A stretch of 64,000 bases of DNA from Brachypterus glaber. Its lineage: Eukaryota > Arthropoda > Insecta > Coleoptera > Kateretidae. The DNA is taken from NCBI GenBank assembly GCA_958510825.1, contig OY294047.1, positions 49,025,365-49,089,364 on the forward strand, written 5' to 3'. The notes under the pieces are model-generated. The model was not told the origin of the DNA and did not search any database. It was given only the letters and a program-made list of their open reading frames with translations. This document shows, one piece after another, positions 7,463-59,003 of this stretch (the first letter of the stretch is position 1; every line of letters begins with the position of its first letter). The position numbers and the translations under genes were made by a program.

Positions 7463-10400
7463 GTAAGTGTCAAAATAAATAAATAACTAAAAAAATTAAG
7501 TGTGTTTGAAATAGGGTCAATAATTTTAAGGGGTAATTCTACATCATAAAATATGAAAAAAAATTCTATAAACATATGTCTAAAAATGCGGCTTAAGGGA
7601 GCTAAGCCCTTTTGAAAGTGGCTTGATAATTATGTTTTTATTTATTAACTCAGAAACCCTTTGGGATATAGCAACGAGGTTTTGAACGTAAACTAATCTT
7701 AATAGTGTCCATCTTCGTATGTCATTTTAACCAGGGTGTACAAAATCTTTTTAATGTATTTTGACCTTAGGAATTATATGCCAATAATAAAATTACAAAA
7801 AAAAAATACAGAGAAAAAATTGACAAATTGACTTTTTAGTTTCTTTTCGTCGCATTTTTAGACATATGTAGAAACTTTTTGTCATATTATCTTATGTAGA
7901 ATCACCCCTTAAAATTATTGACCCTATTAAAAATACACATTTAGTCTACATAATTAAGATACTATTATGAAAAGAGGGTTGTTATTCTTTAAATTTGAAA
8001 TGGAGTTGGTATTATACATCATTTATAATTAAGTTATATGAAAGTATTTTATTTACTAGCTTTTATTTATATTTTGTTATTAGCTTTAAAAGCTAAGTAT
8101 TTATATTTTGATCTTCGAGGCCTAAAGCCTAATTTATTGGAAACAACATTAGCTTTTTATTACAAACTGTTTTTTTCTTTTTTATTTAAAAATAAAATAA
8201 TTGTTTTAGGTGCTATTTCCAATAGTAAAAAAGGACACCATAATAGAAGTAAGATATTTTAATAAAAAAATGTATACGGGGTGAGTTCTAGGATTAGAAT
8301 ATAATTATTTAAACGAAACGGTATATGTTTAAAAAAATGCTTAAATAACTCAATTTTTATTTCAAATTCTGCATCTATATGTCTATACTTATATCTGCCC
8401 AAGAGCAACCCAATCAGATGATATATAATTTTTGAGGTCTTTAAATTTAAAATTAAGGACAACCCCACCCTTGGGGGTGTTAGATTTTTTTACTAACAGG
8501 TTCAATTTTTGCGACGTTATAAGTTCATAAATATACCTACCTATTTTTATAAAAAAGTAAATATTTTAAAACTTTCCACCCAAACCAAACCAAAATTCTA
8601 TTTTCAGATTCAGTTTTAGCACTCTCAATGAGCCCTAGGCGCATATACTTAATTTTGTGCAATAATATTTATTTTTAAATTTAGTGCATTATGTCCCCTA
8701 TTATGGTATACCCTACCTGGGGGTGGAGTTAAAAAATGTTTATTATTAGATTTAGGTTAATAAACTCACAAAAACCCTATACATATTTTCACAAAAATAT
8801 TAAAAAATTAAAAATCGTTACCACCACCCCAACCGGGGGTGTAGTTGGAAAATATTAATTATATACCAAGGTAGAGAAGATATTTTTTATAGCCGAACGT
8901 ATTAAATTTCGGGGTATGTAGCAGCGAGGGATTTAAGAGTGCGAGGCTGTAATAGTCTTCTCTACTCTAGTTTATATATTAGTTTTTTTACTACTACCAC
9001 TATTTAACTATTTTTATTCAAATAACAAAATAAATTATTAACAGAAATTATATTTCTTGAATTTTTTATAAAAATCAAGAGCCTTGCCTTGCTTAAGTAA
9101 ATATTTTGAACTGACGTTTAAAAATTTAGTTTTTTTTTTATTTTTTTCATAATATTTAGCTAATTATTTATTGTATTAATTGGTAATAATTATAATTAAT
9201 TATATTTAATAAATAAAAAGTTATTTAAAGCTATTTTCTTGGGTTTAATTAAAAATTGAACAAAAACTGAAACATCTAAAGTGACAGAAATCAATTATTT
9301 ATAAAATTTACTCCTACTAGGAGAAAAATAGTTATTTATGGTACTAGTGGGTAAAGTAAGATATTTCCCATGAGAAAATTAACCTTGGCGTCAGCCAAGC
9401 AGGTTAATTTTCGAGAGGGCAATATCGGTTTACCCATGAGTGCCATACAAGGTTTTATCCAATAAATAGCTTAGGAATTCATATTTTTATTAAAAATTTT
9501 AATGACATTTACAAGAAAATAATTTAACAAGTGACAGTTGAGTGAGTAAAATAAATAATTATCCACTCAATAAAGTAAAAGCCACGTGGGGTTATTATTG
9601 AGTTTATCTATTTAAAATAAAGCTCGTAATTGTCTTATTATCTGTATGTATTGGATAAAAATTGTTATTGCTATAGGTGAAGAAAATTAATTTCACAGTC
9701 TGAAAACATGATAAATAATGGTATGTTCTAAAGCTAGTAGTGAAAAAATATTATTATAAAATTCAGTTTAAGTACGCTTAAAAACCCTATATAAAATTTT
9801 TTACGAAATATTAAAAAATACCCTTGTATCAAAGGCTTTTAAATTTTAGTACCACAGGTATCGTATGCTTGCGATGGCTTTTCAGTTACCTTAAAATGTC
9901 CAAATAATGAAGTTATTAAGGTTCTCGGCGCTGATTATGGAAGATGGACCAGAACCGTATGTAATAGTGAACCAATTCAAAATATGAACTGTCATTCGGA
10001 TCGGTTAAAAACTATAAAATATGTGCAAGGCGTGTAAGTTATAAGTTTTTATAAAAATGTATGTAAACTTACGTAAAATTACTTTTTATTTACAATGACA
10101 AATAAAATAACTTATGTAAAACGCACATGTGAAATTGTGTAAAATTATTAAATTTTGATAAAAATAATTTAAAACCCAATAAATTTACATTATTTGCTTT
10201 AATGTAAAAATTTCTTAAGTAAAGTTTGATTATGTTAAAATTACCTGTTTACATTAAAATACTTTATGTTTTAATTAAAAATTATTAAATATTAAATAAA
10301 TATATGTTAATTTACATGCTTTATGGAAAAGGATATAAATAATTTAAATATCCTTCTATCTCTAACACGGTTCGCTTTTATTTACTTTTAGTTCGACCAA

Positions 10401-13400
10401 AAATCAAATAATATATAACTCTTAATAAATAGCTTAATTTAAAGAAACATTTAACTTTCTTGTTCATTAATTAAAAAGAAAAGAGGGTTTATTCTAAAAA
10501 TACAAAACAAAAATTATAGAGGTCACGTGACTCTTTTTTCCGATTAAAAAACTATTCAGAAAGATTTTTTGACTTTGTATACCGTATATAAGAATAAACG
10601 AGAATTTTTGTATTTCGGTATAGTTTTTTATTGAAAAACATATAGATTTCTGCCTAGCGCTTTCGGAGTGTTAGTCCATCTTCAGGGCTGGCACTGAAAG
10701 TAAGTAAAGGGGGGGTCAGTTAGATTTGAACAGATTTTGGGGCCCTTGAAATTAGGTTATGTTAAATTTTATTAAATTACTTACTTGTCAGTGCCTTACA
10801 GGGTGCAGCAGAGGATAAATAGTTGTTGGAAAGTACATTTAGAGCAAAGGGACGATTTTAAAGTGTATGTAATCGTCCCTTTGCTCTAAATGTACTTTCC
10901 AACAACTATTTATCCTCTGCTGCACCCTGTAAGGCACTGACAAGTAAGTAATTTAATAAAATTTAACATAACCTAATTTCAAGGGCCCCAAAATCTGTTC
11001 AAATCTAACTGACCCCCCCTTTACTTACTTTCAGTGCCAGCCCTGAAGATGGACTAACACTCCGAAAGCGCTAGGCAGAAATCTATATGTTTTTCAATAA
11101 AAAACTATACCGAAATACAAAAATTCTCGTTTATTATTATTATTATATAAAAAACTATTCGTCCGATAGATTATTTTATAAATAATTTTTTAATTGCAAG
11201 TAAATAAATTATACAAGAAAACTAAGTTTTTAAAAGTCGAACAAAAAGTGAATAACGGCGAACCGTGCAACCGTGCAACAAAATTACACTTCTTAACACA
11301 AAATATATTTTTTGTAGCTGCGAAAACAAAAATAATTGTCAAATAGGAGCAGGTAATGGATATGATGATCCCTGTTTAAATACCTTTAAGCATTTGGAAA
11401 TAATTTACACATGCATTGGTAAGAGTAAATAAAATTTTGATTATATATACTCTATATAATATATTATATACTCTATTTATACATATTTATTTTAGCGGTT
11501 TATCTGGAACCAACTCCCAAAAATGGTAAGTTTTTTTAAGATCTTGAAATAATTTTGCATAATGTAAAAAAGTTACACATTTTAACACAAATTAATACTG
11601 AATTGTGTTACAACAATTTGTGTTGTTAAGATTTTGCAAAATCTACACATTACCTTTAAAGGTAAAGCTTTGTAATTTATTGTTTATTAAATCTTGAGAA
11701 ATGTCGTTACACACAAGTATATGTTAATAAAAATGCCATATATTATTATAGTATAATTAGTAATTATTTATTACTAATAAATATTTATTTAAAACGAATT
11801 TGTTTATAAATGTATTTAATTTTTATTATTAAGCACAAAATTATAATAAATAGCCTACAAATTTTTATACATATGTATGTCAAACAGGAAATATGGTTTT
11901 AATTTACCCTTAGTTTTCTTAGTTTTTTATTTAATACAATATAATTAGGTATTATTGTACATAGCTGTTTAATGGGTTGCCTATAAGCTTGTCCTAAATA
12001 AAGGCAAACTTGACAGTTTGCTAGTTACTGTTTTACACTTCATAAGAAAAATAGTGTATATTTTGATGTTTTTTATAAAAGTCAGGTAACTAAATCAAAA
12101 TGAAGTATTTTTTATAAAATCTACACACTCATAGAATAGTTTCTATTTTTAACATGAAAAACAAAAAATATTGGGATTAAAAAACATAAAATATATCTAC
12201 GAGGTAAATATCTAAATAAAATTAGGCAACCCTCCATACATAAATATCACACTAGGGTGATATAAAAATATCAAACAAGTTTGATATAAGGCGTTTTCTA
12301 AAGAACAAAAGAGTGCTAAATGTCATTTTCATAAAGGATCGTAGGAAAAACATATTTTTACCGACTTGTTAAATCCTTCCTGTTATATTTTTGTATGAAA
12401 ATGTTTTATTTTTTTAGAACTGTGGAAAGCAGTGCATGGTTGTGATGGAGACATAAATAACCTAGAATGCCCAAATGGTAAATTAATAAACATACATGTG
12501 GCAGATGATGGAAGATGGAACAGAATTATATGCAACAGGGAACCCATCAAAACATTAAGCTGCTATGCGGATTCACAGATTTCTTTGGACTTTCACAAGA
12601 AAAGGTTAGTATGTTAGAAAAAATAGTTAGTATGTATTGTTATCAAAACTCCATTGATCCCTTAAAAAAGGCTCAAAATAGTATAGTTAAAATTATGTTA
12701 AGAAAAGGTAGATTATATTCCACCGAACTTCTGTATAAAGAATGTGGTTTGCAAAGTATTCGGAATATATATGTTTTTCAGTGTGTAATATGGATGCACA
12801 AAAATAAAAATTTCGGGGCACAAGTTTGTGATACTAGACAAGCAAATTCTCAATATTTACCTTTTTTTAAAACATCTTTTACGCAAAGAAATGTTTTCTA
12901 TTTTGCACCAAAATTCTATAATTTTATTCCACGAGAAATAACACAAATTTTACATTATAAAAAATTTAGAAAAGACGCTAAAAATTATATTACTGCTAAT
13001 TTACATACGTTTTTAAGAGTTATTTTGCAGTAAAAGTTACTATTTATATAAATTTGCTTACCCTCCCACTTACCCCTTTTTCCATTTTCTAAATCGATGT
13101 GTACATTTTCCTCCTAAATTTCTTTTTTATTTTTTAACTTTTTTGGATTTTTACTTTTGCACACATTTAAAATTTCCTCAGCACATACTCATATTTTTGT
13201 TTTGTTTTTTGTTTTATATAAGTATATAATTGTAGCGATGAAAATATATTTTTTACACAATGTGATACAATTTTTAAGCTTGAGTGGTCTGTTTAACACA
13301 CAAATCCTAGATTTAGGTGAACAGGCTAAAAATATTATATATTATATTAGTATCAATTTTCTTTTTATCTCATGTTTAAATAATCTGTGAACTTATAAAT

Positions 13401-26610: not shown

Positions 26611-29600
26611 CTACCCTACTCCCTGCCTAAACCTGCCGGACCTCCTTATAAAGGTCGCGATATCTGTCCAGGCAAGGGTACGCAACTCCTCTCTTCGGAG
26701 AGTTGCCACTCCGAAGATCTCCTGTCGTATTCTGCCGAACCGATCGCATTGTCCTAGGAAATGGAAGGACGATTCTTCGTCTATCCCGCAACCCGAACAG
26801 ACGGGGTCGTTACCAACCTTCATCTTGAACAGGTGCCTTCCTAGTCCACAGTGACCCGTGAGGATCCCTGTGAGTTGGCTGATCGTGGCTCGGCTTCTTC
26901 CTAGTAGCCACGCGGTTTTTGACTTGCTTGGACCGGAAAGGAAGTCCTTTGCCTGTCTGCAGTTCGTGACCGTTGACCAGCTTTCCCTTAGTTTTTCTCC
27001 AGCCCACGTGTTGAGGGCTGATGTGACTTGTTTCCTTGTAATACCAAGCATGGGTTCGGGTCCCATGCACGGAGTTTCGGCTCCGAGCCTGGCAAGTTCG
27101 TCTGCCTTCTCGTTGCCTGGTATCCCGCTGTGTCCAGGGACCCATACAAGGTGGACTCTTTTGTTCCTCGCTAGCTCCTCCAGGGCTTCTATGCATTCCT
27201 GCACAAGACTGGATCTTGTGCTGGGTGCACTGAGAGCTTTCAGGGCTGCTTGGCTGTCGGAGCAGATGTATACATCTGATCCGTTGCTCCCTAGAACCTC
27301 TTCGCATCTTGCCGCTTCCTGTATCGCAAAGACTTCCGCTTGGAATACCGTGGGGTACCTGCCGAGCGAATAGCTCTTTTGAACCCCCGTGTCTTGTACA
27401 AAGAAGCCTGCGCCCGAGCTTTGCGTGCTTTCCATCCGGGAGCCGTCTGTATAGCACACTGTTGCGTTTTGGGCAAAATTAACTTCCTTGTTCTCCCACT
27501 CGTGTTTTGTTGGTATAGTGAGAGAGAATGCTCTGTCAAACCTTAATCGGTCTTCCGCCTCTATCACCTTGATGCTGCTGATAGGTAACTCTACTCTGGC
27601 AACATCGGCGATTTTTGTATGTCCGTAGACTGCCCCTTCACCCAGCCAGCATCCAACATCTCTCATTCTAAGGTAGCTAGCCATTGCCTCCCTCCTTATC
27701 CAGGACGGAAGCGTTGGCAGCCCCAGTAGAACTTCCAGTGCTGATGTGGGGGTCGTCCTGATTGCGCCGGTGATCCCGAGACACGCTAGTCTTTGGATCT
27801 TACTCAGACTCCGAGCTACTGTGGTTTTGCTGACGCTTGGCCACCATACCACCGAGCCATATTGGACTCTGGGTCTAATGACGGCGGTATAGATCCATAA
27901 TAGAATCTGTGGGGTCATGCCCCAGCTTTTTCCCACTGCCCGACGCAAGTGCCAGAAGGTCGCAATCGACTTGTCAATGACTTTGTCTACATGCGCCTTC
28001 CAGTTGAGTTTACTGTCTAGGGTTACTCCCAAGTACTTGACCTCTTGTGAGAGCACAAGCGGTTTTCCGTACATTTGGGGGGCCCTAAAGTTCTCTATCT
28101 TTCTCCTATTGGTAAAGAGGATAAGCTCAGTCTTTGTTGGGTTGACTGATAAGCCTTTTTCCTCACACCACTCTTCTATTATCCTGCAGGCTGTCTGGAT
28201 TCTTTCACAGACCGTGCCCAAGAACCTTCCAGTGACTAGGACCGTGCCATCATCTGCAAATGCTTGTGCGTATAGCCCAGCGGCCGTCAGCCTCTCTAGG
28301 AGACTGTCCATAACTAGACACCATAAGTGAGGTGAAAGACAACTGCCCTGTGGACATCCACCCCTCACCCCGATGTCCAGACGACAGTCCCCCAGAGAGG
28401 CCATGACATTCCTTTCTACCAGCGCAGATCTTACCCAACTAACCAGCGCTGGCGGGGTGCCCCTCGCTAATAGCGCACCGCAGATGGTTGACGTTCTTGC
28501 CCTGTCGAATGCTCCCTCTACGTCAAAGAATATGGCCAACGCCCATTCTTTGTGGTGTAACGCCTTTTCGACTCTTCGCACTATAGCGTGGAGGGCCGAG
28601 TCTGTCGACCTGCCTCGCCTATATGCATGTTGTCCTCTATGGAAAGGATGCCTGCTAAGCACTCCTTCCATCAGGTACCGGTCCACTATCTTTTCCAGCG
28701 TTTTCAGCAGGAAAGATGTAAGGCTTATTGGTCTGAAGGATTTGGCGGTTGTGTAATCCTTCCTACCCGGTTTGGGGATGAAGACCACTCTCGCCCTCCT
28801 CCATTCCTTTGGAACATATCCCAGCGCCAGGCTGGCCTTAAAGATCCTCTTCACGCTGGGAAGAACGATCTCTATGCCCGCCTGGAGTAGCGCTGGGAAT
28901 ATGCCATCCGGTCCTGCTGCCTTGTATGGGTCGAACTCTTTCACCGCCCATTTGATCGCGCCGTCTTTGATAACCTCCTCGGCCAGTTGCCGGTCCCCTC
29001 CTGGGAGGGGACCCTGCTCTACCTCGGGGTTATCTTGTTCGACGCTTTCACCGGGAAAGTGAGTCTCCAGCAGTAGTCTTAAGGACTCTTCGCTGGAGGT
29101 GGTCCAACTCCCATCTTGTCTCTGTAGCGAGCCTACCGATTTATTAGACGTGCCGCTAAGAATTTTCATCAGCCTTGCAGAATCCGACAGTGACTCCATG
29201 TCTCCGCAGTATTTCCTCCAGCTTTGTTTCTTGCTTCGTCTAAGCTCCTTTTTGAAATCCCTTCTCACCCCTCTATACCTATCCCATGAGGACTCTGTGT
29301 CTTCCCTAAAGGCTTGGTTGAATGCCCGCCTACACTCCTTGCGCAGGGTGTCCAGCGTGCCATTCCACCATGGGACCTTTCGGTCCTTGGCCTCCCTGAG
29401 TGGACAAGCCTCCTCATAAGCTGAGATTATGGTATTATTTAGAGTGGTGACCTCTTTGTCTAATTGTTCCTCTGTGAGTATCTCACTGTCTGAATCCCAG
29501 TTATGACTTTTGAGCTGGGAGAGGTAATTCTCCCAGTCCGTTGCCCTTGGGTTTCTTTTCATGATTGGATCGGGTTTGTCCGACCTTAACTCAAATCTTA

Positions 29601-30267
29601 CCATTCGATGGTCCGACATGGTTATGTCCGACGACACCCTCCAATTCAAAATGTTCTCTGATAGAGTGATAGATACCAGCGTTATATCAATCACCTCCTT
29701 TCGGACTCGATTGACAAATGTTGGCTCCTTCCCTCTATTCATTATCTCTAAATTGGTCGATGCTAGGTACCCCAACAAGGTTTCCCCCCTAGGGTTTATA
29801 CCCGTGCTTCCCCACACCACGTGGTGTGCGTTCGCGTCGCAACCGATAATTACTGGTAGGCGCTGTTCATTCGCGAATTCCACCAGGCTCACTAACTCCC
29901 TCGAGGGAAGTACGCCTTCGTACGGCAAATATAAGCTACCCACCACCACCTTATGACTAATGCCTCTTACCTTGTGCTCCAGAATAGCTGCCGTTACATC
30001 CTTGGTGCCCAGCTGGGTCAATGGAACCACGTTCAGCTCCTTAGATGCCAGGATACATGTTCTGATGTGTTCGTCCTCTTTGCCAACTATAATTTTATAG
30101 CCGGCTGCACCTAACCCCCTTACGTTGTTCCTGTAAACATAAGGTTCCTGTACCAATACGATCTCGCCTACCTTGTTAGCAAGAGCGCTCACCAGTTCCC
30201 CAGTTGCACTCTTGCTATGCTGTAGGTTGATCTGGCTTACCTTTAACGCCGCCATTGATGGGGTCAC
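26611..30267 (-). CDS. LINE ORF2: endonuclease, reverse transcriptase, RNase H
   Basis: 1,218 codons. APE-type endonuclease at about 10-235 (QEPY with E41, CDANAHH around 143-149, SDHR around 218-221). Reverse transcriptase at about 490-760 (FFDVEGAFD with D582, FADD at 670-673). RNase H at about 936-1,065 (YTDGS D941, E978, CSDSQAA D1004, PGHSG H1046, KADELA D1056). A C-terminal CCHC-like cluster follows (C1157, C1160, H1169, C1174). All catalytic residues checked are present. It nicks target DNA and copies the element RNA in the nucleus. It starts 23 bp after ORF1 ends. Confidence 0.95.
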   Translation of the reverse strand: MTPSMAALKVSQINLQHSKSATGELVSALANKVGEIVLVQEPYVYRNNVRGLGAAGYKIIVGKEDEHIRTCILASKELNVVPLTQLGTKDVTAAILEHKVRGISHKVVVGSLYLPYEGVLPSRELVSLVEFANEQRLPVIIGCDANAHHVVWGSTGINPRGETLLGYLASTNLEIMNRGKEPTFVNRVRKEVIDITLVSITLSENILNWRVSSDITMSDHRMVRFELRSDKPDPIMKRNPRATDWENYLSQLKSHNWDSDSEILTEEQLDKEVTTLNNTIISAYEEACPLREAKDRKVPWWNGTLDTLRKECRRAFNQAFREDTESSWDRYRGVRRDFKKELRRSKKQSWRKYCGDMESLSDSARLMKILSGTSNKSVGSLQRQDGSWTTSSEESLRLLLETHFPGESVEQDNPEVEQGPLPGGDRQLAEEVIKDGAIKWAVKEFDPYKAAGPDGIFPALLQAGIEIVLPSVKRIFKASLALGYVPKEWRRARVVFIPKPGRKDYTTAKSFRPISLTSFLLKTLEKIVDRYLMEGVLSRHPFHRGQHAYRRGRSTDSALHAIVRRVEKALHHKEWALAIFFDVEGAFDRARTSTICGALLARGTPPALVSWVRSALVERNVMASLGDCRLDIGVRGGCPQGSCLSPHLWCLVMDSLLERLTAAGLYAQAFADDGTVLVTGRFLGTVCERIQTACRIIEEWCEEKGLSVNPTKTELILFTNRRKIENFRAPQMYGKPLVLSQEVKYLGVTLDSKLNWKAHVDKVIDKSIATFWHLRRAVGKSWGMTPQILLWIYTAVIRPRVQYGSVVWWPSVSKTTVARSLSKIQRLACLGITGAIRTTPTSALEVLLGLPTLPSWIRREAMASYLRMRDVGCWLGEGAVYGHTKIADVARVELPISSIKVIEAEDRLRFDRAFSLTIPTKHEWENKEVNFAQNATVCYTDGSRMESTQSSGAGFFVQDTGVQKSYSLGRYPTVFQAEVFAIQEAARCEEVLGSNGSDVYICSDSQAALKALSAPSTRSSLVQECIEALEELARNKRVHLVWVPGHSGIPGNEKADELARLGAETPCMGPEPMLGITRKQVTSALNTWAGEKLRESWSTVTNCRQAKDFLSGPSKSKTAWLLGRSRATISQLTGILTGHCGLGRHLFKMKVGNDPVCSGCGIDEESSFHFLGQCDRFGRIRQEIFGVATLRREELRTLAWTDIATFIRRSGRFRQGVG

Positions 30268-30290
30268 TCATGGGGCGTGGTTGGCAAAAC

Positions 30291-32120
30291 TTATGTGGTC
30301 CGCTGGGGGCCGCTCGCGCCCGAGGGGCCGCGGCTGACAACTCCGCTCCAAGATGTGACCTTCCTTACGGAAATAGTCATCAGCTCGAAGCACAGCTGCC
30401 AGCTCGCCCCCTCTAGGCGCCTGACGGCGTCCCTTTCTACCACAAAAGTGAGGAACCAGTCTCCTGCCTCTCCCGTCGTCTGGATGTGACGCCATCCCTC
30501 GATGTTGAGCGAGGGATTCTGGAAAGCCATCAGCCTCTTCACCTTGCCTAGGTCCAGCTCTTTCTTCCTTAGCCAGAAGCCTACCTTCTCCGGCCATGGA
30601 GCATCGGCTGCCGCCACCTTGGTGAAGGCAACCCCCTCCAGGGTCGGAGTTGGCCAGGTTTCCAGCAGCCAGCGCTTTGTTGGCAGGGTCATGGTCGTTA
30701 TCAGGAACCAGCCGGGAAATACCACGCCTGAGTTCCTGAATCTGAGGGGACCCACAGGGGGAGTTGCCTCTATAGCCCTGAACATCTCCTCCACCATGCT
30801 CGCCCTCAAGCGCTCTGCCTCTTCGGGCGTAACCTTACCGTCCTCCCTATCCGACCTTATTACCACCTGCAGCTCCTTCTTCGAAGGGTCCTCGGTGGTT
30901 TCAGGGTCGGACATTTGCGTCGGCGCGTTACCCTCTCCCCTCTCCAGGGAGGAGACCTGATGGCGTGTGCCACCCTCCCCTCTATGGAGAGGCGAGACGT
31001 GCTTGCGCTTTCCGCCGTTGGGAGGGGTGCGGTAGTGGTTAGGCCTTTTCCTTGAGCTACCTGGAGGTGTTTCTTTGTCTGTCCTCAGTCTCTTTTTGCT
31101 CGCCTCTGGCTTAGAGCTGGAGGTTCCTTGGAGCCTCCTTTCCTCGCCTCGGGCGGACGCCGGAGCCGTTGGCAGCGCAAAGAGCTTCTTGGCCACTCTC
31201 CTTTCGTTCCTGGCTGATGGACCTCTCCCTTGAGTTTGGCTAGGTTTCTGAGGGACCGGTTGCCTTACCGCTTCCTGTATGCCCTCATGTGAGCAGCCAG
31301 GTCGCGGTACTGGCGTCGGTCTCCTAAACCCTCCGTCCGGTTTTTGGGGGTCGCCGCACCCTCCAACAGGCTTACTTCCCCCAGTGGGGATATCCGCCTG
31401 TGGAGCGCCTTCGGCTTGCCCAGTCCCCGTCGCAAGGCTGGAGCTAGAGGCGGCAGCGTTACTTTGCTGCTCTCCTTCTCCCTCCTTGGCCATCCTCTTC
31501 TTCTCCTTCCTTCTTTGGAACTTCCTCCTCTGCTTCTCTCTTTGGTTCTCCTTCTTCCGAAGTGCCGCCGCTTCAGCTGCTTCCCCGGCCGCCCCATCGA
31601 GGTTGGTGTCTTCGGACGTCTTCCTCGGTGACCCAGCTGGGGAGTTAAGGAGTTTTTCCTCCTCTACCGCGTCTATCTCGTGTCCGTCGGACGTCTCCAT
31701 AGAGTTGAGGAACTCTGTTTCCTCTTTTTGTGGCACTATCTTTTCCATATTTTCGTTTTGATTCATGGCTAGAACAAAGTTGTGTGCTAGTATTTGTGTA
31801 GTGTGTAAGTGTGGGCATTCGATAGGGCGTGGATCCCCCCCTTTCCATCGAATGACTCGCGGGCGCTCATCCTTAGTGAGAAGTCTGGCGGCCGCTTTTC
31901 CCCTGGTGAAGCCCCCCGGAAGTGTGCAGCGGGTCCTCAACCAGGCGCTACCTGGAGCCGCTGCACACCCCAAGATTATACACCGACTTATAGGGCGGCC
32001 CCCTACGCTAGCTAGGCAAGGGTGGGCCCCTTTCATCGGCGGCACAGGCGTGCCTGACCTGCTTATTTCACCGCTACCATTCCATCGTGACTTCCCTCTA
32101 AAGTAGCCTCCACGAGCCAC
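30291..32120 (-). CDS. LINE ORF1 (nucleic-acid-binding-type protein)
   Basis: 609 codons if the first ATG is used; a second ATG at 31,766 (MNQNENMEKIVPQ) may be the true start because the first 118 residues look like translated 5' UTR. The middle is Arg/Lys/Glu/Pro-rich and probably disordered. The C-terminal 180 residues (VVFPGWFLITTMTL through WQLCFELMTI) resemble the insect DUF4780-type domain seen with such LINEs. No CCHC knuckle was found. Presumed role: binding the element RNA. The DUF assignment is from memory and needs a profile search. Confidence 0.75.
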   Translation of the reverse strand: MARGGYFRGKSRWNGSGEISRSGTPVPPMKGAHPCLASVGGRPISRCIILGCAAAPGSAWLRTRCTLPGGFTRGKAAARLLTKDERPRVIRWKGGDPRPIECPHLHTTQILAHNFVLAMNQNENMEKIVPQKEETEFLNSMETSDGHEIDAVEEEKLLNSPAGSPRKTSEDTNLDGAAGEAAEAAALRKKENQREKQRRKFQRRKEKKRMAKEGEGEQQSNAAASSSSLATGTGQAEGAPQADIPTGGSKPVGGCGDPQKPDGGFRRPTPVPRPGCSHEGIQEAVRQPVPQKPSQTQGRGPSARNERRVAKKLFALPTAPASARGEERRLQGTSSSKPEASKKRLRTDKETPPGSSRKRPNHYRTPPNGGKRKHVSPLHRGEGGTRHQVSSLERGEGNAPTQMSDPETTEDPSKKELQVVIRSDREDGKVTPEEAERLRASMVEEMFRAIEATPPVGPLRFRNSGVVFPGWFLITTMTLPTKRWLLETWPTPTLEGVAFTKVAAADAPWPEKVGFWLRKKELDLGKVKRLMAFQNPSLNIEGWRHIQTTGEAGDWFLTFVVERDAVRRLEGASWQLCFELMTISVRKVTSWSGVVSRGPSGASGPQRTT

Positions 32121-49951: not shown

Positions 49952-51722
49952 AATAATAATAATAATAATAATAATAATCTTTATTTCACAAATTACATCA
50001 ATTATACGACCATGAACTATAAATAATTACAAAACATTTATGCATAACCAACATGAAAATGAAAATAGTCAAAAGAGAGAAAAAAAAAAAACATAGTACC
50101 TAAATATATGAACTTAATCTATAACATTTACATTTAAATATTCTGACATTGAGTACGGCTCTAATTGAACCAATAAATTAAAAATTTGCCTCTTGAACGA
50201 GGAGAAGTTTAAAATAGATTTGATACTGTTAGGTAACTTATTAAAAACAATAATACACATATAAAAACTACCTTTTTCGAACTGTACAAGCCTATGACGC
50301 GGCAGTTTGTAACTAATACATCTGTCCCTAGAAGACCTAAAACTACTAAAAATACTTTTGTTTTTAAACATAAAAGTTAAAAGCTCATAAATATAAAGCC
50401 CATTTAAAGTAAGAATACCATTTTCTTTAAAATTACCCCTACAAGAACCATTGTACTGTAGACCTAACATTGTGCGTAAAGCGCGTTTTTGAATTTTAAA
50501 AGCATCCTCTGCGTTCGAACTCTGACCCCAAAAAGTGACGCCGTATCTTAGGACTGATTGAAAGTTTGCGAAATACACCGATTTTAATGTTTCAAAATTA
50601 ACGTACGATTTTAACACCCGTAGTGAGTAACATGTAATATTTAATTTTTTACACAATTGTGCTAAATGTAAATTCCAACTTAAATTTTCATCCAACATTA
50701 ATCCCAAAAATTTAGTGTCTCTCGCAGTATTCAAAAATGTGTCGCCAAACGGCAGCACTTCAGGGGTGATAAAGTTCGAACGAGAGGTTTTAAAAACTAC
50801 TATATTAGTTTTTTCGCGATTTAAAAGAAGTTTATTTTTCAAAAGCCACTGTAAAATATTTTTTACGCATTTGTTATACAATAAAATTAATTCATGAAAG
50901 TATTTAGCCCTCATTAGCAGGTTTGTGTCATCCGCAAAGTTAATTAGGCTACAATTTAAATTAAAAAAAGCATTTATGATGTCATTCATGAAAATTATGA
51001 AAAGCAAAGGACCTATAATACTTCCCTGTGCAATGCCGGTGCCCTCCAAAATTGATGGGTCAGAAAAGTAATAAACTCCATTTTTAACGACAGCCACTCT
51101 TTGTGATCTTCTTGTTAAGTATGATTTTATCCACCGCAGTGCATTTCCCCTCACACCGTACCTCTCGAGCTTTTGTAACAAAATGTCGTGGTCTATTGAC
51201 TCATAGGCCTTAGTTAAATCTAAAAATAAGGCAATGATGTACTCAAAATTTTCAAACCCGGAGAGAATACCATGCGCAAAATCATGCACGGCGGTAGTTG
51301 TGGATCGATTTTTTAAATATCCATGTTGGCTTTCGTTAAAAAGGTTATTTACTTCAAAAAATTCAATTACCCTTCTAGCCATGGCTGTCTCAAAAATTTT
51401 TGAAAAAGCTGATAGAAGGCTTATAGGTCTATAATTTTCAATTTGACATGGATCATTCTTTTTATGGAGTGGTTTTACTAACGCAACCTTTAACTTTTCG
51501 GGAAATACACCATGAACCAATGAATTGTTGACCATATAAGCAAGAGGTTCAGAAATTTGCAAAGCACACAACTTTAATATTGCCACAGGTATTTCATCGA
51601 CGCCACTGCTCCATTTGTTTTTTAAATTTCTAATAATATCTAAAACTTCTAAACTTAAAACTGGTCTTAAAAAAATTGAGTTTTCATTATTTACAATGTC
51701 ACTATAGCTACTCCTCAGTTGT
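49952..51722 (-). mobile_element. 5'-truncated LINE (CR1/Jockey-like)
   Basis: Minus-strand element with a 490-codon RT ORF, a short 3' UTR, and a (ATT)n tail (49,952-49,978 on the plus strand reads AAT repeats). The coding frame continues upstream of the first ATG to about 51,720 (SYSDIVNNE, KNKWSSGVDEIP), then is cut. The endonuclease and ORF1 are missing. Confidence 0.88.
50114..51586 (-). CDS. LINE reverse transcriptase, N-terminally truncated
   Basis: 490 codons without stop. RT motifs: NYRPISLL (51-58), HGYLKNRSTTTAV (88-100), FLDLTKAYESIDH (D123), GSIIGPLLFIIFMNDI, FADD (217-220), then FLGLMLDENLSWN. The C-terminal part follows the CR1/Jockey pattern. Because the element lacks its 5' half, it cannot mobilise itself. 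An open RT frame indicates fairly recent insertion. Confidence 0.9.
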   Translation of the reverse strand: MAILKLCALQISEPLAYMVNNSLVHGVFPEKLKVALVKPLHKKNDPCQIENYRPISLLSAFSKIFETAMARRVIEFFEVNNLFNESQHGYLKNRSTTTAVHDFAHGILSGFENFEYIIALFLDLTKAYESIDHDILLQKLERYGVRGNALRWIKSYLTRRSQRVAVVKNGVYYFSDPSILEGTGIAQGSIIGPLLFIIFMNDIINAFFNLNCSLINFADDTNLLMRAKYFHELILLYNKCVKNILQWLLKNKLLLNREKTNIVVFKTSRSNFITPEVLPFGDTFLNTARDTKFLGLMLDENLSWNLHLAQLCKKLNITCYSLRVLKSYVNFETLKSVYFANFQSVLRYGVTFWGQSSNAEDAFKIQKRALRTMLGLQYNGSCRGNFKENGILTLNGLYIYELLTFMFKNKSIFSSFRSSRDRCISYKLPRHRLVQFEKGSFYMCIIVFNKLPNSIKSILNFSSFKRQIFNLLVQLEPYSMSEYLNVNVID

Positions 51723-53059: not shown

Positions 53060-53265
53060 CACGGTTCGCCGTTATTTACTTTTAGTCCGACTTTAAAAAT
53101 AACTTAGTTTTCTTATGTAATTTGATTATTTACAATGTATATAGATTTAAATCTAAAAATTAAATAATCTATCGGACAAAACGTATTTTCTTCGCAATCA
53201 CGTGACCTCCATAACTTTTAAATTATTGGTCAATTGGAGCAAAAGTTACATTCTCCTACCTACTT
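53060..53265. mobile_element. Family G element, fragment
   Basis: CACGGTTCGCCGTTATTTAC, then AACTTAGTTTTCTT and CACGTGACCTC, match in order the two sides of 10,366-11,267 without its palindrome. It therefore shows the state before the palindromic insertion. Confidence 0.55.
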
Positions 53266-57660: not shown

Positions 57661-59003
57661 TATACACATTCAAAACATGGCAACAAGGGCATTTGATACT
57701 TTGGACCCTAATTTTTTATCTCAAAAAATTTACAAATTAGGATTACGCTGTAAGATTAACAAGTGGATCCGTTCTTTTTTATAGAAAATTTATAGTAAAA
57801 ATAGGGTAAATGTTCTCGTCAAATTTTAATAGTAAAATAGGTACTCCTCAAGGAAGCGTCTTAGGACCTTGGCTTTTTTTATTATTTATAAACGACCTTC
57901 CTGACTATATAATTGAGGGCTTAATATTTATGTACGCAGATGATACCACCATTTTAATTTCTCATAAAAATTTACATACACTTAACTTACTTTTAAATAC
58001 TGTTTTACAAAAATTTAAAGAGTGGTGCGACAGAAATAAATTAATTATTAATATGAAAAAGACAGTTATAATAAACTTTGGCAGGAAACAAAAGAGTATG
58101 CAACTACAAAAATATAATTTTAACGATACGGAATTAACTACGGCAGAAAGTACAACTTTTCTAGGAATGGTCTTAGATAAAAATCTTTCTTGGGAATTAC
58201 ATACAAATTTTGTTGCCAAAAAAATAAACAGGGCTTTTTATGTTTTGTACTCTTTGAAAAAATCTGTAGGAATATCCCAACTATTAACAGTTTATTTCGC
58301 AAACGTGCACTCAGCTCTTTCGTACGGGATTTTAGTCTGGGGTCAGTGTAATGACATAGATAGGCTACTTATTATCCAAAAACGAATTTTGAGATTAATT
58401 TTTAATATAAAACCCCGTGATTCATGTCGTGATGTTTTTAAATTAAACAAGATTTTAACTGTGACGTCAATTTATTTATTTAAGATTTTAACTTTTATTT
58501 TTAATTTAAAAAAGGACCTTCAAACAATAAACAGCAACCACAAATATCCAACAAGAAATGGAGATTTGCTGTTGATGCCAAAACATAGATTAGAATTTTA
58601 TAAAAAATCTACCTATTATGCAGGTCGCTTTTATTTTAACATGTTGCCTCATGAACTAAGAAACTGTGATAAACTAAATGTGTTTAAGAAAAAACTCAAG
58701 GAGGTACTTATAAATAACTGTTTTTATTCCTTACAGGAGTTTATTAATTTCTGTAAAAAGTAGTAACCCTATATTTGTGATACCGTCTGTTTTTTTTTCT
58801 TTTTACTTTATTTCTATAACAAGTACTCCTATATTTGTGATACAACAGTCTGTTTTTTTTTCTTTTTATTTAATTTTTATTTTTTTTTTTCAGATTTTTG
58901 TACTTATTAAATATAGGTAGGCTTATGTATTAAAATGACATATCCAATCTATTGTAAAATAGCTTAATGGACGAATAAAGTTTTTATTTTTTTTTTTTTT
59001 TTT
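57661..59003 (+). mobile_element. Broken LINE fragment (CR1/Jockey-like)
   Basis: RT remnants in two frames at 57,680-57,784 and 57,810-58,763, a 3' UTR with a duplicated CTATATTTGTGATAC phrase (58,770 and 58,832), and a T-rich end after AATAAAG (58,975). It starts right at the edge of the CACAGTGGG element, so the TIR element may have inserted into a longer LINE, or the LINE may be truncated there. Confidence 0.8.
57675..58763 (+). pseudogene. Reverse transcriptase pseudogene
   Basis: ATRAFDTLDPNFLSQKIYKL (motif A region) ends at a stop near 57,782. The reading resumes with KIGTPQGSVLGPWLFLLFIN, then MYADDTTILI (YADD motif), FLGMVLDKNLSWELHTNF, and a CR1/Jockey-type C-terminus to 58,763. 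The stop/frameshift break and the missing N-terminus show it is dead. It is related to, but distinct from, the minus-strand copy at 50-51.6 kb. Confidence 0.88.

Follow-up and report, generated by a model that had tools for sequence, protein, structure and literature searches.

How a perfect palindrome comes to lie between two copies of a short direct repeat is the question raised by this locus. It is found in a 64,000-bp stretch of the Brachypterus glaber genome (hereafter the window, whose own numbering is used throughout). The segments 10593-10857 and 10871-11135 are perfect reverse complements, 265 bp each, on either side of a 13-nt loop (10858-10870). After a mismatch at 10592/11136 four further pairs match, and the repeat search returned arms of 270 nt. 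The whole insertion of 590 bp (10558-11147) is flanked by TAAAAAACTATTC at 10545-10557 and at 11148-11160, identified from the sequence and from a duplication survey as the left and right copies of a target-site duplication. The mismatch-free arms, the loop and the 13-bp target duplication described in an earlier note on this DNA are all confirmed in the sequence, and the palindrome is real. Its outer ends are unequal. On the left, 30 nt (10558-10587; 35 nt with the exact 265-bp arm) separate the target duplication from the palindrome, and on the right there are 7 nt (12 nt with the exact arm) that consist of a TTA stutter. About 37 nt of the left end are missing from the right end, which is closed by the TTA repeats. 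This asymmetry proved to be the key to the origin of the palindrome. The miRNA-like Rfam matches across the loop, all under the gathering scores, were rejected as expected of any long hairpin.

The arm was searched against the whole genome (648 Mb, 842 contigs) and gave at least 48 matches. It corresponds, with one mismatch over 270 bases, to the pseudo-LTR (pLTR, unit position 1-263) of a tandem array of a Penelope-like element (PLE) at C1:101631114-101642975, whose period is 2898 bp. When four complete units of C1 were compared, three were identical and one differed at one base. A frame of 799 codons (795 amino acids from the first ATG) is intact in four copies of the array, and this single ORF would encode a PLE-type reverse transcriptase (RT) with a GIY-YIG domain. 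Among the 7996 candidates scored, which were those sharing most words with the protein, 601 were homologous at E<=1e-3. Most of the 120 homologues listed of these 601 are annotated with PF00078 (RVT_1) and seven with PF01541, and those named among the matches listed include Diabrotica, Coccinella and Lepidoptera. The protein aligns nearly end to end, at 35% identity, with a homologue annotated PF01541. The RT residues K322, H324, K325, G446-G450 and V485-D487 are invariant in ten aligned proteins, and the KIHK motif is one that we take to be PLE-specific. GIY..YIG is found in the C-terminal part, where G683, Y685, Y697, G699, R708 and E757 are invariant in the alignment and presumably have the catalytic roles of a GIY-YIG endonuclease. 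Motif and homology thus point to a C-terminal endonuclease of this type. The NCBIfam group II RT model matched the protein at E 1.5e-8, far under the model's cut-off. Three Pfam scans of the protein itself gave zero matches, and so did a search of solved structures at E up to 1; two homologues were rescanned with Pfam, of which one matched RVT_1 and the other (P0007) matched nothing. The relation to Penelope-like terminal repeats that had been proposed from the sequence is borne out, since the arm sits in RT-encoding tandem arrays. Single arms joined to a Penelope-type RT were found in the arrays of both C1 and C254.

The palindrome is therefore a recent insertion of two head-to-head pLTR copies of a PLE. 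Comparison with the array showed that the left arm (10558..10857, minus strand), whose 5' end is unit position 1, has a long end with a tail. The tail (10558..10594, minus strand; about unit 264-300) lies between two presumed reverse-transcription start sites, its ..TCTTTCT end abuts the target duplication, and it corresponds to the PLE tail described in PMC11167929. The right arm (10871..11147, plus strand) has a short end, which stops at about unit 263 and continues as the TTA stutter. Each arm holds an unspliced GT-AG intron of 91 nt (unit 74-164) at 10694..10784 on the minus strand and at 10944..11034 on the plus strand. A base-pair check also predicted a minimal hammerhead core (unit 168-208) in each arm. 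In the left arm it occupies 10650..10690 (minus strand), with the predicted cut between 10655 and 10654. In the right arm it occupies 11038..11078 (plus strand) and reads CUGAAGA..GAAAGCGCUA/GGC, the slash being the predicted cut between 11073 and 11074. The head-to-head junction (10856..10870, plus strand) is made of a 2-nt microhomology (10856-10857) and the 13-nt loop, which is unit 2886-2898 and contiguous with the right arm only. Because the loop belongs to the right arm, that arm exceeds the left by 15 nt at its 5' end. The perfect match of the arms had been read as a sign of very recent origin or of gene conversion. Recent age is supported, and gene conversion is not needed, since arms of young copies match because they were copied from the same or nearly identical RNA.

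Insertions of the same build were collected from the whole genome with a 25-base pattern (unit 239-263, up to 2 mismatches), and the reversed pattern was used as control. The pattern gave 73 matches and the control none. Five of these matches are in the C1 array, two are in C254, ten are single copies, and the others form 28 neighbouring pairs. All 28 pairs are head-to-head and each has a target duplication of 12-14 bp (L049 included, the right end of which was scored as short). In every pair the tail, about 37 nt long, takes one arm to about unit 300, and the other arm ends at about 263-272. The length agrees with the 30-40 nt of the optional PLE tail, and the 2898-bp array and the 28 inverted pairs show tandem copies with pLTRs in both direct and inverted order. 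With at least 48 genome matches of the arm and 28 pairs of like build, each with its target duplication, the structure in the window is far beyond chance. L044 and L045, about 711 kb apart on C1, are one and the same dimer, flanks included, in opposite orientations; probably a segmental inverted duplication took place here after the insertion. They represent one insertion in two inverted copies, so L045 was dropped and 27 independent dimers were counted. All 27 combine a long with a short end (P = 7e-9 under independent, even ends), and the long end is on the left in 14 of them and on the right in 13. The ten single copies outside arrays and pairs have five long and five short ends. Single use of either site is thus common, and independent choice would predict mixed ends in about half of the pairs. 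L041 was left out of the analysis, and L079 was dropped as a pattern match with no PLE sequence upstream.

The same pairing was observed in two other PLE families. The protein of family 2 is 50% identical to that of family 1, and its pattern gave 20 matches against 3 in the reversed control at equal stringency; all four pairs are long plus short, and the seven scorable singles are three long and four short, with one chance-like match set aside and a match on C414 left out of scoring. The family 3 protein is 35-36% identical, and its pattern matched 234 times in the genome, but not once when reversed. The 100 of these matches that were listed include 25 minus/plus neighbours no more than 2 kb apart. 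All 25 were examined, and 23 are long plus short, one is long plus long, and one (L086) is unscorable, its right end continuing into the element. Over the three families, one long and one short end were therefore found in 54 of the 55 scored pairs (27/27, 4/4 and 23/24). In the exception, L099/L100 in family 3, the two sides agree at 117 of 117 bases read away from the pattern, a stretch that takes in the tail. Since even the flanks are identical, this pair has the appearance of an inverted duplication of genomic DNA and not of a single insertion. The short start is near the apex of a predicted hairpin (stem UAUACCG/CGGUAUA, -5.7 kcal/mol) and the long start is 3' of it. In L063 and L066 the letters of the stem differ, yet ATGCTG/CAGCAT and TTGGAG/CTCCAA still pair by eye. 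A (TTA)n stutter is frequent at the short end beside the target duplication (L043, L044, L046, L047, L051, L059 and the window at 11134-11147), which suggests slippage at initiation. In L027 one end is a normal long end and the other is an internal fragment (unit 853-2477) in inverted orientation, and a 10-bp direct repeat flanks the copy; its structure suggests that the second strand was primed internally.

The arms also carry information on the RNA from which they were copied. In 17 dimers both arms cross the intron, and nine of these are unspliced in both arms, eight are spliced in both, and none is mixed. Unspliced and spliced dimers are each found in both sequence lineages (T or A at unit 264), so that the state is not simply a subfamily mark. 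In family 2, two of the four dimers are informative for the intron and both are spliced in both arms. Ten loci of family 3 were examined. In five of them (L086 included) both arms are informative, and in each case both are spliced; one arm each is informative in L088 (spliced) and L090 (unspliced). With one state only, these two families carry little weight for concordance, but they show that the template was sense. Spliced arms reach no further than unit -79, whereas unspliced arms reach to -1145. We infer that the spliced templates were ordinary mRNA starting at about -60 to -80, and that the unspliced ones were read-through from an upstream copy. Many spliced arms start at unit -58 to -79 (L047, L051, L053, L056, L058, L059), possibly the transcription start of the PLE mRNA.

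The 5' ends of paired arms are a median of 16 nt apart, compared with 167 nt after shuffling, and none of 20000 shuffles was as close. This matching persists when eight clustered dimers are removed (median 28, n=19); in five dimers (L026, L028, L034, L043, L047) the ends are more than 100 nt apart. The host might also have brought the 5' ends closer together by trimming palindrome centres, and two like RNAs in one particle could be a source of both the intron and the 5'-end concordance. At the junction, an overlap of at least 2 nt was found in 15 of 27 dimers, against 18% expected from random joins, and 1-17 extra bases were found in five dimers. The overlaps of 10-24 nt in L032, L051, L053 and L054 are probably inflated by over-extension of the alignment. 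The short arm reaches further 5' in 16 of the 27 dimers and the long arm in nine, and in two they are equal, which does not show which arm was made first.

Together these data make it probable that both strands of a staggered cut were primed on sense RNA at two start sites and that the cDNAs were then joined end to end. The GIY-YIG endonuclease of the element would make a staggered double-strand cut, whose 13-nt stagger is seen as the target duplication, and both target strands would offer their 3' ends as primers for reverse transcription of the sense RNA. The long-ended left arm would come from the strand on which copying began at the more downstream of the two sites, about unit 300. The short-ended right arm would come from the other strand, where copying began some 40 nt further upstream, at about unit 263 and close to where the predicted hairpin has its apex. 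Both cDNAs would reach nearly the same point of the template. Their 3' ends would be joined, mostly through a microhomology of a few nucleotides or a short filler, and the opposite strands would then be filled in. The two cDNAs most likely came from the same RNA molecule. If each site is used once on one RNA, no long plus long or short plus short dimer can arise, and a site under copying is not free for a second primer, so that one RNA used twice is the simplest account. We hold the balance to be about even for the fuller statement that PLE integration couples the copying of both strands to a single RNA, with two start sites each used once, one per side of the break, and with in vivo hammerhead cleavage setting the 5' end of some templates. 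If this is true, a single type of event would yield the tail and the inverted pLTRs as well as the target duplication. The earlier note had suggested an inverted dimer made by target-primed reverse transcription or template switching; the former agrees with these results, and the latter is contradicted by the unequal ends.

The rival that deserves most attention supplies two RNAs, one for each subunit of a dimeric particle, with a protein dimer coordinating the start sites and a common source transcript making the RNAs match. Lunse et al. in 2017 reportedly described hammerhead variants of PLEs that cleave as dimers, and the self-complementary AGCGCU, which replaces helix III and its loop, could pair between two RNAs. 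The PAc protein is also predicted to form a dimer (PMC11167929). Against this, a pool that is about half spliced should yield mixed dimers, which were found in none of the 17, and the matched 5' ends require an extra assumption. We therefore regard two RNAs as possible but rather doubtful. A fold-back of the cDNA 3' end, which would copy itself and insert as a hairpin, would produce small loops and matched 5' ends just as observed. However, a copy of one cDNA cannot gain a tail absent from the first, and where the short-ended arm reaches further 5', as it does in 16 of 27 dimers including the window (the junctions of L053 and L054 being ambiguous), neither arm can be copied from the other. In the window, fold-back from the right arm cannot make the left tail, and fold-back from the left arm cannot make the loop. 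The second arm would also be expected to continue into copied target DNA. The fold-back reading is thus contradicted for the window and for the other unambiguous dimers, and we consider it very improbable in general.

Self-priming of an antisense RNA, proposed for the PLEs of Adineta (PMC3846280), makes head-to-head repeats, and all 28 pairs are indeed head-to-head. It does not predict unequal ends, and dimers in which neither arm retains a GT-AG intron number eight in family 1, two in family 2 and five in family 3. Splicing needs sense RNA, so the spliced dimers had a sense template, and the antisense reading is contradicted for these families and retains hardly any credibility. Perfect palindromes are a known class of assembly artefact, and 32-bp imperfect inverted repeats enclose this one, as would befit a fold-back in the assembly or a DNA transposon whose terminal inverted repeats are long. 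The unequal outer ends abutting a 13-bp direct repeat, the 28 pairs of the same build, and the position of the arm in an RT-encoding tandem array leave these two readings a negligible chance. The transposon, artefact, fold-back and antisense readings were rejected on the grounds given for each.

If both strands are primed on sense RNA, the hammerhead may have had a part in setting the 5' ends of some templates. The core in the pLTR has the layout of a minimal PLE-type hammerhead, with CUGAAGA, an extra U, a 3-bp stem II, GAAA, the self-complementary AGCGCU, A203 and a 3-bp stem I. The base-pair check on one arm, which had been proposed for the suspected hammerhead, gave the CUGANGA and GAAA core, stems I and II, and A203 as H17 at the predicted cut. 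A free-energy fold pairs the stretch somewhat differently. Rfam reported no hammerhead at gathering across the window and none at E up to 5 in 9000-13000. PLE hammerheads are described without helix III in a review (PMC6155905), and this missing helix may be the reason why Rfam does not report them. In four independent dimers (L042, L044, L052, L055), the start of both arms falls at unit 204-206, just 3' of the predicted cut and within 3 nt of it. These eight of 54 arm starts form the largest such cluster, and the four dimers span two sequence lineages; L042 has a 12-nt filler that repeats adjacent element sequence. To our knowledge, this footprint is the first genomic hint that PLE hammerheads may cut templates in vivo. 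A second promoter or an RT stop at unit 204 is a less probable but by no means idle explanation. Cut and initiated 5' ends look the same in genomic copies, and Rfam reports no hammerhead here. Against it stand the four dimers of two lineages, whose arms all start at most 3 nt from the predicted bond, and a structure-induced stop would be expected before stem I is read and not on its far side. In families 2 and 3 (L065 and L066), a hammerhead-like core reads CUUGAAAAUG, with conserved positions altered and an adjoining intron at the same place. Among six 5' regions of other PLE frames, the plain CTGANGA..GAAA pattern was seen in L067 only, which has a run of N and was left out; L063, with an altered core, was likewise left out of the hammerhead comparison, and a core of the CTGANGA..GAAA type was searched for and absent in the 5' regions of L062 and L064.

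Penelope of Drosophila virilis, the founding member, has inverted and direct pLTRs and a tail. In LINE twin priming, two priming events use one RNA at one target, and the internal second priming gives an inverted 5' piece. Unlike this, both arms here start at the element's own 3' start sites. The closest described system is PAc, a Poseidon PLE of Anolis carolinensis, whose protein cleaves and extends both strands from two adjacent internal RNA start sites (PMC11167929). As described there, PAc shares with the present element the tandem pLTR-ORF organisation, RT and GIY-YIG, a minimal hammerhead followed by two start sites, and a tail that is the segment between these sites. The core layout, extra U included, is the same as in the printed PAc RNA (PMC11167929). 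Start-site use by PAc is reported as equal between strands, whereas here one site per strand was used in 54 of 55 scored pairs; the lack of a top/bottom difference in PAc fits the 14:13 split and gives no support for coupling (PMC11167929). The same study describes hammerhead cleavage as dispensable in vitro and traceless in reads, whereas four dimers here start at the hammerhead site. The Penelope elements of Adineta vaga have direct and inverted pLTRs with head-to-head inversions, an optional 31-bp tail at one inverted pLTR and target duplications of 8-10 bp (PMC3846280). The authors favoured antisense self-priming and left an unspliced sense template open, whereas the spliced dimers here need sense RNA.

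Inverted pLTRs with one tail, pLTR introns, minimal hammerheads and two-strand extension are in print (PMC3846280, PMC11167929, PMC11722881). The open-licence literature searched showed neither the pairing rule nor the concordance of intron state nor the ribozyme footprint, and priority is not established. What is added here is that natural insertions use both sites together, one per side of the break, with the same splice state and nearly the same 5' end. The 2013 study left the choice between sense and antisense template open (PMC3846280), and for three families natural dimers answer it, the template being sense RNA that is often spliced. The 2024 in vitro study leaves later steps of integration for validation (PMC11167929), for which one long and one short start per insertion on matched templates is a testable rule.

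Other elements were seen in the window. The 32-bp inverted repeats around the palindrome (10366-10397 and 11236-11267, 88%) have a related piece at 53060-53136, and the probable target of the PLE was a small, MITE-like element with inverted repeats. A GC-rich LINE-type element occupies 26611-32120 on the minus strand; domains for endonuclease, RT and RNase H are present in its 1218-aa frame, which is preceded by a 609-aa frame without a Pfam match. Frames matching RVT_1 are also present at 50114-51586 (minus strand) and 57810-58763 (plus strand).
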